Positions 9,121-34,545 of a stretch of DNA of 40,511 bases are shown here, one piece after another. Origin of the DNA: Parcubacteria group bacterium GW2011_GWF2_45_11 (GTDB taxonomy: Bacteria; Patescibacteriota; Patescibacteriia; UBA1558; UBA10009); the NCBI GenBank assembly GCA_001001205.1, contig LCKE01000002.1, positions 1 to 40,511 on the forward strand. The letters run 5' to 3'. The notes below the pieces were generated by a model. It saw nothing but the letters and a program-made list of their open reading frames with translations. It was not told the DNA's origin and searched no databases. Position 1 is the stretch's first letter; each line of letters opens with the position of its first letter. Both the position numbers and the translations under genes were made by a program.

Positions 9121-9147
9121 CAAGGTCCGGCTCCCGGATCTTGTTTT
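9121..9147 (+). terminator. gyrA terminator
   Basis: CAAGGTCCGG-CTC-CCGGATCTTG stem followed by TTTT. Confidence 0.75.
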
Positions 9148-9214
9148 AATTAAAAACCTTTTAATTAAAAACCTTAATTAAAAACCTTAATTAAAAACCT
9201 TAATTAAAAACCTT
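9144..9214. repeat. Tandem repeat of TTAATTAAAAACC, five copies (two 15 bp, three 13 bp)
   Basis: Direct reading of (TT)TTAATTAAAAACC x5. Confidence 0.95.
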
Positions 9215-13439: not shown

Positions 13440-13949
13440 ATGGATTTAGGCACACATTTGTTTACCGGAGTGGTGGCCGCCAGTTTTTGGCCCGGCCTGG
13501 ATTTGCGGCAGAAAATTTTGGTGGTTTTATTTGCGATTTTGCCGGACAGCTTTGAATGGCTACATCAGCTGGCCAGAAAGCATTACGATAACGACGGTCA
13601 TTTAGTGGCTGAAGATTATAACCGCTTGTCCAAAAAGATTGAGGGCCATTGGTATTTATGGCCTTATAATTTTTTTCATAATCTTTTTGGACCGTTGATT
13701 TTTTTGGTCTGTTCAGTTTATTATAATTGGACTTTAGCGTACAGCCTGATGTGGTTATCACACTTATTATGGGATTTGCCTTCTCATAAGATTAAACTGG
13801 GTTTAAAATTGTGGTGGCCGTTTTATCAAAAGAGAATTCACGGTTTTTTTGACTGGTGGCTGGTAAAATTTTTTAGGGGCTGGGAACTTTTAGGCTATTG
13901 GGCTATTTTAACGATTATGTCCGTTATTTTAATTAGAAGTTTCTGGTAG
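13440..13949 (+). CDS. Membrane protein, possibly DUF457/YdjM-like
   Basis: 169 aa; MDLGTHLFTGVVAA, LPDSFEW, FHNLFG, SHLLWDLPSH and several TM segments. Confidence 0.55.
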   Translation: MDLGTHLFTGVVAASFWPGLDLRQKILVVLFAILPDSFEWLHQLARKHYDNDGHLVAEDYNRLSKKIEGHWYLWPYNFFHNLFGPLIFLVCSVYYNWTLAYSLMWLSHLLWDLPSHKIKLGLKLWWPFYQKRIHGFFDWWLVKFFRGWELLGYWAILTIMSVILIRSFW

Positions 13950-14035
13950 GCCATTGTTTATTCTAGAAGTTGCCCAGCGCAGGTTGCCTGATATAACAGC
14001 GGTATTTTAATTTTCGTCCGACATATTTTTTATAA

Positions 14036-14400
14036 CAAAAACCCTGCATTAGAAGCAGAGGTTTTTGTTTTTGTTTTTGTCGAGCTTAAGCTCGATGGAG
14101 CAGTCGTTGTTAATGATTCGTTTAATGGATAGTCAAACGAATTTCCAAAGCTTGAAGCGTTTATGCTTTGGAAAAATATTAATCCCTTTTTATCTCCGCA
14201 CCACTTTTTGTCTCCATCAGGGATCATTAGAGACAAAAAGTGGTGCGGGACTTGATTGTTTGTCCTGGTTTTTTAGCCAAGACACAAGGTTGGTCAACGA
14301 GATGCTCGTTTAATTGTGCAAAGAACATTATTTCAAATCGATTTGTCGTTTTGAAATAATCTTTTTTGGCAATCAAAAAAGGCTATTCCATAAGATAGCC
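14036..14400. repeat. Array of about nine consecutive, sequence-unrelated stem-loops
   Basis: Stems at 14036-14067, 14080-14095, 14116-14142, 14142-14174, 14196-14248 (19 bp perfect), 14296-14310, 14327-14360 (11 bp perfect), 14361-14381, 14381-14400; imperfect one at 14261-14284. Confidence 0.85.
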
Positions 14401-14667
14401 ATCCTCTAGCAAATTGGTGGTTTGATTTTGCTTAATCTCTTGCGGCAGTTCAGGCAGAGTTTCCGCTTCAACCCGGTGGGACTGTTCAAATGATTGTGAG
14501 GCTAGAGTCATCAATTCAGCGGCGCCGATAACAATCAGGAAACAGATCACTAGATACAAAAAAATGTGCGTTTTTTTATTTTTCATTTTTATTTTTGTTG
14601 AGCTAAGCTCGATTTGTCTGGCTTTAGCTGGATTTGGCCCAGACAGACTTTTTGTTTTTAGGGGCAT
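14383..14667 (-). CDS. Hypothetical small membrane protein
   Basis: 94 aa with one TM (HIFLYLVICFLIVIGAAELM). Real start may be MKNKKTH at 14586, because the upstream codons contain further inverted repeats. Confidence 0.5.
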   Translation of the reverse strand: MPLKTKSLSGPNPAKARQIELSSTKIKMKNKKTHIFLYLVICFLIVIGAAELMTLASQSFEQSHRVEAETLPELPQEIKQNQTTNLLEDGYLME

Positions 14668-14718
14668 TTTTAATGCCTTCTAAAGATAGTTTAGCATATT
14701 TTTTTAGGTTTGTCAATT

Positions 14719-14754
14719 AAAAAAAGGCCGGTCATTTTCTTGACGGGCCTTTTA
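14719..14754 (-). terminator. Rho-independent terminator of the 14783..17029 gene
   Basis: Minus strand AAAAGGCC-CGTCAAGAAAATGACC-GGCCTTTTTTT. Confidence 0.8.
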
Positions 14755-14782
14755 TGTTTAAATTTTCCCAGTTAAACTCCAT

Positions 14783-17029
14783 TTATTCAATATCGGCGAG
14801 AGTGGAGAGATCGGCATCAGAAACGCCTAAACTTTGGTGGCGCATAATTTCATAAGCTTTATTGCCATCCGGCATATAGGTCACTGTGCCGTTAGGGTTG
14901 ACAAAATAAGCTTCACCATGAGCCTTGACTCTAAGGACAATCCGTCCGGCTAAACGCTGGCGGAGTTCCTGACCTTTTACGGTCCCACTCATTAATTCCA
15001 GAAAATCAGCTTCATTAATGCCCAGGCCTTCTTGTCTCATTAATTCATAGGCCGAAGAACCGTCTTTTAAGTATAAAACCTTTTGGGTTTTAGGCGACAC
15101 GTAAAATGCCTCGCCCTTGCCTTCGGCTTTGAGGATGATTTTGCCTTCCAGACGATCATAAAGGTTTTTGGCTTTCGTATCAGCTTTAGGTTCGTAAACT
15201 TCAATTTTTTCCGTTTTTTCCATTTGTTGGTCGGCAGTATTTTGCTCAACCGGCGTGTCAGTTTGGCAGGCATTAGAAGTATTCTCGCAATAATTTATTG
15301 GCTGATTTGGGCTAACTTCCGTAACTTTGGCGCAGTAATGATCAAAGGTGAATAGATAACCGCGGCCTTCTTCATTATCAATGGCGCAAACTTTTTCAGT
15401 TTCGTTATTGTAGAGTTGATAACTCAGTAAACCTTTTTTGATGTCAAAATAATTAAGATCAGAGCAAGGAGTCAGGTCAACCTGACAGGCCAAATTGGTT
15501 GTCTGGGTGTAAGTGTTATTGGCGTAAATTGTGATGTTGTCGTTATAATTTGTTTCTTTGGCATTAACATTTGGCTGAAGATCAAGCGAAAGATACATGG
15601 TATCCATTTGTGAGGTGGTAGCTTGAAAATTAGCGGTAGAACAGATTTCCTCTTCCACGCTTACGCCCGGTTGATAGGTTAACGTATTGGCGGCAAAGCT
15701 ATGGCCGCAAGCGATGACGCCTAGTTGGTCAGTTGTGGCTTTTCCGTTAGTGTCAAGAGTAAGGTATTTGTTGGTGCTTTGCCAGGTTACATTGAGATAA
15801 GGTTTATCTTGACTGCTGACGGTAACAGGGCCTTGCCCGATATTGGTCACCGTGGCCCAAACTCTGACACGGTCCCCGGCCTGAGGTTTGGCTGGTTCCA
15901 GGCGAACCTTGGAAATAATTAAATTGCCCATTTCAGCATTTACGCTTGAAGACGGTTGAGTGATATTTAACCCTGCAACTTGAAACCAATAAGTATAAGT
16001 AACCTGTCTGGCTACGCCATAAGTTTTGGCGCAATAAGATTTATCCAGACCGCAGTATAAGGAAACCTCCAGGCGATAAAGACCGGTGGTAAAAGGCCCG
16101 ATTGGTCCGGTTGTCCAATAGCCATTGTTATATTCGGTATTGCCTCCGTAAACTGTCTTGGCATCGGTGTAAACCTCTTTTTCCGTGAATTTAGTAACAT
16201 ATGCCTGCATGGAGAATCCTTTAGTCTGCATAGCTAAGGAGCCGTTTTTTTCCAGGGCTTTAATGGTTAAGTTAAAGCTTTCATCAGTGCCATACGTTTG
16301 TTTGACACCTTCAATATTCATGCTGAAGGGTATTTCCGTTTCGCCGTCAGTATCTATTATTTCCGGTTCGTTTTGGCCGGAAGTATCAGACGATTGATTA
16401 TCATTGGCGTTAACAGTTTTACATTCGCCGCGATAGTCAATTACCGCCTGGCGTTGCGAGGCGAGGCAACTATTAGAGTAGGTTTTGCCATCCGTGCCGC
16501 AGACTGGGTCATAATCCGTGGTGCAAGCCGAAGCTTCATTTTGGCTTGCCGTTGGCGCGGTTAATGTTTGATTATTTTCCTTGACCTCCACTTTTTTGAC
16601 TAAACTGTTATTATTTTCATCAGACTCTTTAGTGGCATTATATATGTCCGCGCTGGCGGTTATTTCATAAGATCCGGGTTTAATCAAATCAGTTTTTATG
16701 TATGCCACCTCTCCCGGTTTAAGTCCATTTTTATTAAATAACTGGCCGCCATACCATGTTTTACCGGAGAGTTTATCGATCGCTTTGACCCAGATGGTGC
16801 TATAGGTGGTTTCCGTGCCGATATTTTTCAGAGCAACTTTCAAATAAAACGCGCCTGTAAGATGATCTGTTAGTTCAGTAGCCTGAACATCATAGATAAT
16901 CAAATCGGCTAGGCCCATACTATCATCAGTATCCTCGGCTTGAGTGTTGACAGAAGCCAAAACGTCCCCCGAGATCATAAAAGAAAACATAATGACAGAA
17001 ATAATCAGGAATTTTTTAAGTTTTTTCAT
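14783..17029 (-). CDS. Secreted multidomain protein: signal peptide, CARDB-like domain, Kazal-like domain, BsuPI-like region, second CARDB-like domain, two C-terminal ~60-aa repeats
   Basis: Signal peptide KFLIISVIMFSFMISGDVLAS; Kazal CTTDYDPVCGTDGKTYSNSCLASQRQAVIDYRGEC; LIISKVRLEPAKPQAGDRVRVWATVTNIGQGPV; tandem RLEGKIILKAEGKGEAFYV / RLAGRIVLRVKAHGEAYFV repeats. Confidence 0.75.
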   Translation of the reverse strand: MKKLKKFLIISVIMFSFMISGDVLASVNTQAEDTDDSMGLADLIIYDVQATELTDHLTGAFYLKVALKNIGTETTYSTIWVKAIDKLSGKTWYGGQLFNKNGLKPGEVAYIKTDLIKPGSYEITASADIYNATKESDENNNSLVKKVEVKENNQTLTAPTASQNEASACTTDYDPVCGTDGKTYSNSCLASQRQAVIDYRGECKTVNANDNQSSDTSGQNEPEIIDTDGETEIPFSMNIEGVKQTYGTDESFNLTIKALEKNGSLAMQTKGFSMQAYVTKFTEKEVYTDAKTVYGGNTEYNNGYWTTGPIGPFTTGLYRLEVSLYCGLDKSYCAKTYGVARQVTYTYWFQVAGLNITQPSSSVNAEMGNLIISKVRLEPAKPQAGDRVRVWATVTNIGQGPVTVSSQDKPYLNVTWQSTNKYLTLDTNGKATTDQLGVIACGHSFAANTLTYQPGVSVEEEICSTANFQATTSQMDTMYLSLDLQPNVNAKETNYNDNITIYANNTYTQTTNLACQVDLTPCSDLNYFDIKKGLLSYQLYNNETEKVCAIDNEEGRGYLFTFDHYCAKVTEVSPNQPINYCENTSNACQTDTPVEQNTADQQMEKTEKIEVYEPKADTKAKNLYDRLEGKIILKAEGKGEAFYVSPKTQKVLYLKDGSSAYELMRQEGLGINEADFLELMSGTVKGQELRQRLAGRIVLRVKAHGEAYFVNPNGTVTYMPDGNKAYEIMRHQSLGVSDADLSTLADIE

Positions 17030-20505: not shown

Positions 20506-20616
20506 ATCCAGCACCTTTTCTAATACCCTGCGGTCTTAGCCAACCCTACCCTGAAGTATAGTTAAATATACTTCAGGGGGGTGTTTAGGAATATCCTTAC
20601 CGCAAAGGTGCTGGAT
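20506..20616. repeat. Nested inverted-repeat (cruciform-like) element
   Basis: Outer arms ATCCAGCACCTTT (20506-20518) / AAAGGTGCTGGAT (20604-20616), middle GCGGT/ACCGC, inner CCCTGAAGTATA-gttaaa-TATACTTCAGGG (20549-20578). Confidence 0.85.
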
Positions 20617-34503: not shown

Positions 34504-34545
34504 AATCTAAAAAGCCTTGCCCGCGCGGGCAAGGCTTTTTAGATT
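34504..34545. terminator. Perfect 42-bp palindrome, terminator of trpS (overlaps its stop codon)
   Basis: AATCTAAAAAGCCTTGCCCGC|GCGGGCAAGGCTTTTTAGATT. Confidence 0.9.

Follow-up and report, generated by a model that had tools for sequence, protein, structure and literature searches.

A hairpin cluster in a Parcubacteria genome is probably a conserved structured 3' UTR swollen by mobile and other palindromes

The hairpin cluster at 14036-14400 of the window, by which we mean the whole 40.5-kb stretch of DNA analyzed here, is probably a structured 3' UTR, conserved and ending in a terminator, that has been swollen by mobile and other palindromes. An earlier sequence-only reading had described it as about nine back-to-back stem-loops in which structure rather than sequence is repeated, and this interpretation is partly supported. 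The window belongs to G000, a 1.1-Mb draft genome in 69 contigs. We compared it with four genomes of the same family (G001-G004) and two of a sister family (G009 and G015), so that seven sequences in total enter the 3' UTR comparison, while the co-variation rests on the five family genomes. Genomes were sampled as stretches (413 kb of G000 and 315 kb of G004), and G004 is an incomplete genome, at about 72%. Among named genomes, the nearest ychF relative found is a Candidatus Falkowbacteria MAG with 60% identity, and the ychF neighborhoods of named genomes held no additional family members. A search of the available literature found no publication that connects Patescibacteria with SpoIID or with MITEs, a weak sign of novelty.

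Results

The array sits between a plus-strand gene (13440-13949) and a small ORF on the minus strand (Table 1). Read along the minus strand, a promoter-like sequence is followed by a 5' UTR, the ORF, the array and a terminator-like hairpin. The promoter-like sequence is kept at the same place in G001, G002, G003 and G004, and a similar one (TGTGCTAAAAT/TGTGCTAAGAT) is seen in G009 and G015. All five family genomes carry the small ORF or its orthologue in a shared gene order, flanked by queA and ychF wherever both neighbors were read. In G004 the ORF and its 3' UTR are inverted as a single block between these two genes. Both UTRs of the small ORF, the 5' UTR at 14598-14618 and the 3' UTR at 14060-14095, contain the palindrome TCGAGCTTAAGCTCGA or a near copy of it with an A-rich tract behind. 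The minus strand also encodes a 748-aa protein (14783-17029) with CARDB and Kazal-type protease-inhibitor domains; a relative of its C-terminal part is encoded at the corresponding locus in G001.

Table 1. Features of the locus, in window coordinates
Feature	Position	Strand	Remarks
Promoter-like TTGACA-17-TAAACT	14688..14716	-	TATGC before -10; upstream of small ORF
Small ORF, 67 aa	14383..14586	-	one hydrophobic segment; ends ..LLEDGYLME
Hairpin GGCTATCTTATGGAATAGCC-TTTTTT, terminator-like	14375..14400	-	overlaps ORF stop codon; seen in fold
Lineage-specific hairpin ATTATTTCAAA../..TTTGAAATAAT	14327..14360	-	between ORF and RNA core; absent in relatives
11-bp stem	14327-14360		extended: 23 nt, 87% complementarity, 14319-14341/14346-14368
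Element 0, TGTTCTTT	14318..14327	-	start of 3' UTR; same or close variant upstream of A arm, 7/7
Arm A of long-range helix, GAGCA-TC-TCGTTG	14292..14311	-	local hairpin possible too
Lineage-specific hairpin TTGTGTCTTGG../..CCAGGACAA	14260..14287	-	seen in fold; absent in relatives
Inserted MITE-like palindrome, 19-bp terminal inverted repeats CCGCACCACTTTTTGTCTC	14196..14248	.	between A and B
19-bp perfect stem	14196-14214/14230-14248
Element B, GATAAAAAGGGATTAAT, consensus RATAARAAGGGAY	14178..14194	-	in 7/7 3' UTRs; comparable word in 0/200 shuffled sets
Lineage-specific hairpin TTTCCAAAGC../..GCTTTGGAAA	14142..14174	-	B-C linker; other genomes: different or none
Element C, hairpin with loop RCTATCC	14117..14141	-
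Arm D of long-range helix, CAACGA-C-TGCTC	14094..14115	-
Palindrome TCGAGCTTAAGCTCGA	14080..14095	-	precedes A-rich tract
A-rich tract CAAAAACAAAAACAAAAACC	14060..14079	-	similar in 7/7; sole such tract in window
Terminator-like hairpin AACAAAAACC../..GGTTTTTGTT	14034..14069	-	T-tailed toward + strand too
10-bp terminator stem	14034-14069

The small ORF, for which a longer ATG start exists at 14667, is 42-52% identical to its orthologues, including the N-terminus of a 588-aa protein of G003. It matches only the N-terminal membrane anchor of this protein; in G003 the same N-terminus runs on into a SpoIID/LytB domain, and full-length proteins of the same plan occur in G009 and G015. The small ORF is, from these alignments, what remains of the N-terminal part of a SpoIID/LytB-domain protein. 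The SpoIID domain (PF08486 / TIGR02669) was found neither in the small ORF nor in the G000 genome as searched, and it is missing from G001, G002 and G004 as well. It is common in the class, where 227 of 381 genomes have it. The incompleteness of the G004 assembly qualifies the absence in that genome, but the gene at the locus itself is truncated. In a tree built from an 876-aa marker, G009 and G015 fall outside the family, G003 is basal and the four genomes with truncated genes group together at 80/84 support. The truncated ORFs end alike, with ..E[DE]GYL plus 2-12 residues. Since the marker tree groups these four genomes and the end points are similar, the sequences suggest a single truncation in which the leader ORF and the RNA were retained. 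The substitution pattern indicates that the remaining ORF is still constrained: dN is about 0.35-0.56 and dS above 1, near saturation, in the computable comparisons with G000, and second codon positions change least. A stem with a T-run resembling the GGCTATCTTATGGAATAGCC-TTTTTT hairpin is found in G002, and the coding sequence of G003 reads through the equivalent of this hairpin.

The stems named by the sequence-only reading are all present, and the hairpin cluster is real. Folded as a single strand, 14030-14400 reaches -135.5 kcal/mol on the plus and -136.2 kcal/mol on the minus strand, compared with means of -81.7 and -68.0 kcal/mol for dinucleotide shuffles (z = -9.65 and -14.5). None of 100 shuffles folds as well. 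Among 370-nt segments of the window it has the lowest energy for its G+C on both strands. Within the 413 kb of G000 no other 365-bp stretch has as many perfect stems of 8 bp or longer (five, with four in the runner-up), and the cluster holds one of the two 19-bp stems found. A further perfect 19-bp stem, AATCTAAAAAGCCTTGCCCGCGCGGGCAAGGCTTTTTAGATT, lies at 34504-34545 of the window and is probably a bidirectional terminator. About nine hairpins is a fair count, except that CGAGCAT/TCTCG (14292-14311) is better explained as the arm of a long-range helix with 14094-14115. CRISPR had been dismissed rightly, as no regularly spaced direct-repeat family is present in 13500-15000. The array as a whole is not a repeated element; in G000 and its relatives we obtained only self-hits and matches to the terminator. 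Rfam at gathering score recovers only a tRNA-Leu from the window, and a permissive search likewise gave nothing above threshold in the array or in three orthologous loci.

Orthologous 3' UTRs are present in all seven genomes. The 12-mer AATAAAAAGGGA recurs in each of them with at most one mismatch, while 200 shuffled sets yielded no shared word of similar make-up, not even a 10-mer. This core follows the SpoIID gene where it is full-length (G003, G009 and G015) and the ORF where it is truncated (G000, G001, G002 and G004). After the stop codon the elements come in the order TGTTCTTT, RATAARAAGGGAY, A-rich tract and terminator-like hairpin. The RCTATCC loop of element C is found in G000, G001, G002 and G004 on a stem of varying sequence and is degenerate in G003, where a hairpin similar to the palindrome TCGAGCTTAAGCTCGA reads GAGTCAAACTC. 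The hairpin at 14034-14069 consists of a G+C-containing stem followed by a T-run and is a predicted intrinsic terminator; its stem is more stable in the transcript direction in every one of the seven genomes. Each of the seven 3' UTRs folds more stably than its shuffled versions, with z from -3.6 to -11.7.

The arms A and D pair across up to about 200 nt in the family genomes. When the arms of the five genomes were swapped, the cognate pairing was the best of 120 permutations, and changes from G-C to A-U and from C-G to U-A are visible. Helix A-D shows the compensatory changes of a structured RNA in this small sample of five genomes, as judged from the swap test. The A-D energies are equally favorable on the antisense strand (-79.3 vs -76.7), so G-U pairs do not tell the strands apart, and the case for the minus strand comes from position and terminators. 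The two sister-family UTRs have motifs in common with the family, but no A-D helix that is obviously homologous. A structured RNA had been one of the proposals for the whole array, and it stands for the conserved core, with its orthologous 3' UTRs in seven genomes and its co-varying long-range helix in five. Independent divergence of arms among relatives had been named as a possible refutation; the arms of the core helix change together, and the lineage-specific hairpins are just missing from the relatives.

Element B followed by element C matches in three fitting genomes out of 36 searched, once per genome and solely at this locus. Behind the SpoIID genes of 26 other loci of the class with 3' ends read, element B is absent. 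The idea that it is a general SpoIID 3'-end signal in the class was therefore rejected, and the RNA element appears, as far as seen, confined to two families. One isolated match to B, between unrelated genes in G008, was taken as chance. By eye, TGTTCTTT can pair with AAAAAGGGAY in several genomes, but the pairing breaks in G002 and G009, and such a pseudoknot is a conjecture.

The 19-bp hairpin has a different origin. Its 14-nt end AAAAGTGGTGCGGG has 50 matches in G004, mostly as inverted pairs, and 20 complete elements of 32-111 bp are present in 315 kb of that genome (on L213-L232 and L139). The family is mostly intergenic and has the ends YCCCGCACCACTTTT / YCCCGCACCACTTTTGTT. Exact 4-bp direct repeats (TAAA, TTTA, TAAG, TTGA) stand two bases outside the core in 14 of the 20 G004 copies; with shuffled partners the mean is 6.2, and none of 2000 trials reaches 14. 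We call the family MITE-like because dispersed inverted-repeat copies have 4-bp target duplications, and by sequence similarity the hairpin at 14196-14248 is a copy of this dispersed mobile palindrome. No target duplication is visible at the window copy itself, which is the only complete copy in 413 kb of G000, and the palindrome is missing at the same place in G001-G004. The copies (32-111 bp) are too short to encode a transposase, and the element was not found in phage records. The claim that the hairpins have unrelated sequences is true inside the window, but this hairpin has many relatives in another genome. The claim that terminators or one IS end do not explain the array was partly wrong, as the last hairpin is terminator-like and the 19-bp one MITE-like. 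Some G004 copies contain the nested palindromes GTAGGGACAGGTTTAAAACCTGTCCCTAC or GTAGAGACGCATAATTATGCGTCTCTAC. A lone MITE end, TTGAATAAAAAAGTGGTGCGGGGTAAAAT, lies just upstream of an ORF start (9058) in G000 contig 14 (L177:9020-9060), as if supplying a promoter.

No convincing copy of the three lineage-specific hairpins (14142-14174, 14260-14287 and 14327-14360) turned up in the 413 kb of G000 or the 315 kb of G004, and a short T-rich hairpin of the array gives many low-grade matches in these stretches. The 3' UTR measures 165-212 nt in G001, G002 and G003, 283 nt in G004 and 351 nt in G000, a difference that is due to hairpins in the linkers. Two hairpins in the G004 version of the array belong to another dispersed family, CCCTGAAGT..ACTTCAGGG. 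Members of this family are also seen at 20549-20578 of the window, at L177:5148 and 5340 and at eight G004 places; the inner stems vary among the G004 copies without losing complementarity, and an inner motif near RAAGYGAG recurs. Tandem palindromic units, TTTTAATTAAAAACC, lie between genes at 9144-9207 of the window.

Discussion

We propose that a minus-strand transcript would start at the conserved promoter (14716-14688), encode a short membrane-anchored leader ORF left from the SpoIID/LytB-domain gene and end at the terminator hairpin (14069-14034). Helix A-D would close a domain that encloses the RATAARAAGGGAY motif and the RCTATCC-loop hairpin, with TGTTCTTT before it, just behind the stop codon, and with the A-rich tract and then the terminator following it. 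Action as RNA from the minus strand is argued from the fixed order and orientation of the elements after the ORF, their inversion together with it and the terminators that are more stable in this direction in all seven genomes. Most likely the core acts in RNA, either as a protective or regulatory mRNA 3' end or as a 3'-UTR-derived RNA trimmed from the message. Protection of the message and a 3'-UTR-derived RNA would be the most ordinary functions, and the role of the RNA could be minimal, comprising only termination and mRNA stability. The extra hairpins would have accreted in the linkers of the core, the 19-bp one by mobility and the others in a lineage-specific manner.

A more skeptical view is that the cluster consists of a terminator and mobile palindromes that have accumulated as debris in a convergent intergenic space, where the only role of the RNA is termination. 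One hairpin is indeed a MITE-like copy, the G004 version holds two hairpins of the CCCTGAAGT..ACTTCAGGG family, most hairpins are not common to the genomes and the plus-strand neighbor is convergent. However, debris does not explain why element B is kept in all seven genomes when no shuffled set of 200 has a comparable word, why the A-D arms co-vary and why the core persists without the MITE in G001, G002 and G003, and we regard this view as unlikely. The RNA might instead be a separate small RNA gene downstream of the ORF, driven from an internal promoter and close to the SpoIID remnant by chance. Its single copy and its survival after loss of the SpoIID domain would suit such a gene, but the sole conserved promoter seen is upstream of the ORF, the RNA was inverted along with the ORF in G004, and it is always found behind the stop codon, which makes an independent gene very unlikely.

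A site that acts at the level of DNA, as a protein-binding or recombination array with cruciforms on either strand, seems to us highly improbable. Strong inverted symmetry, A-D pairing that is equal on both strands and the inverted block in G004 would all be compatible with it. Yet wherever motifs 0, B and C and the terminator occur, their order and orientation behind the ORF are fixed, and no recombinase is found among the neighboring proteins scanned. We found no evidence for the protein-binding array proposed earlier, nor for template switching as the source of the hairpins.

The structured 3' UTR also allows a bolder interpretation, which we consider doubtful: the locus may be a protein gene turned RNA-centered. 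The ancestor of the four genera would have lost the catalytic SpoIID part and kept the promoter, the leader peptide and the 3' UTR RNA. This RNA would now be the main product, dual-function or regulatory, perhaps with a pseudoknot between TGTTCTTT and AAAAAGGGAY crossing helix A-D, and its linkers would tolerate mobile hairpins. If true, selection now keeps the RNA and the leader peptide with the SpoIID domain gone.

In bacteria whose genomes are very small, the locus offers a case open to testing in which the coding part of a gene appears to have been discarded and a leader peptide and an RNA tail kept. It defines a candidate RNA element that Rfam lacks, as well as a MITE-like family marked by target duplications. 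Accretion on a conserved core can apparently produce a strong hairpin array, which calls for caution in scans for hairpin density.

With MITEs the family of 14196-14248 shares terminal inverted repeats common to dispersed copies and, in G004, 4-bp target-site duplications; an autonomous transposon for it was not found in the stretches sampled. REP/REPIN sequences are, in the available text of two reports, short dispersed intergenic palindromes with many copies (PMC3116915, PMC3733652), and the MITE-like family is likewise short, dispersed, intergenic and multi-copy. Set against the same text (PMC3116915, PMC3733652), it differs in having YCCCGCACCAC ends and target duplications instead of GTAG/CGTC tags. 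No tag of this type is present on the element ends, and a crude motif search of 413 kb and 315 kb of the partly covered genomes gave no HUH (REP-associated) transposase. Like an intrinsic terminator, the stem at 14034-14069 has a G+C core flanked by A/T and ends in a T-rich run, and a terminator of this kind would account for one, perhaps two, of the roughly nine hairpins. Closest to the proposed transcript are dual-function RNAs, of which VcdRP is an example in the available text (PMC8672173), together with structured 3' UTRs and the bacterial sRNAs derived from 3' UTRs. The ORF here is a truncated SpoIID gene and the locus is known from sequence alone, which sets it apart from the systems described in that text (PMC8672173); in common with them, one predicted transcript would combine a short ORF and a structured part and end in a terminator-like hairpin (PMC8672173).
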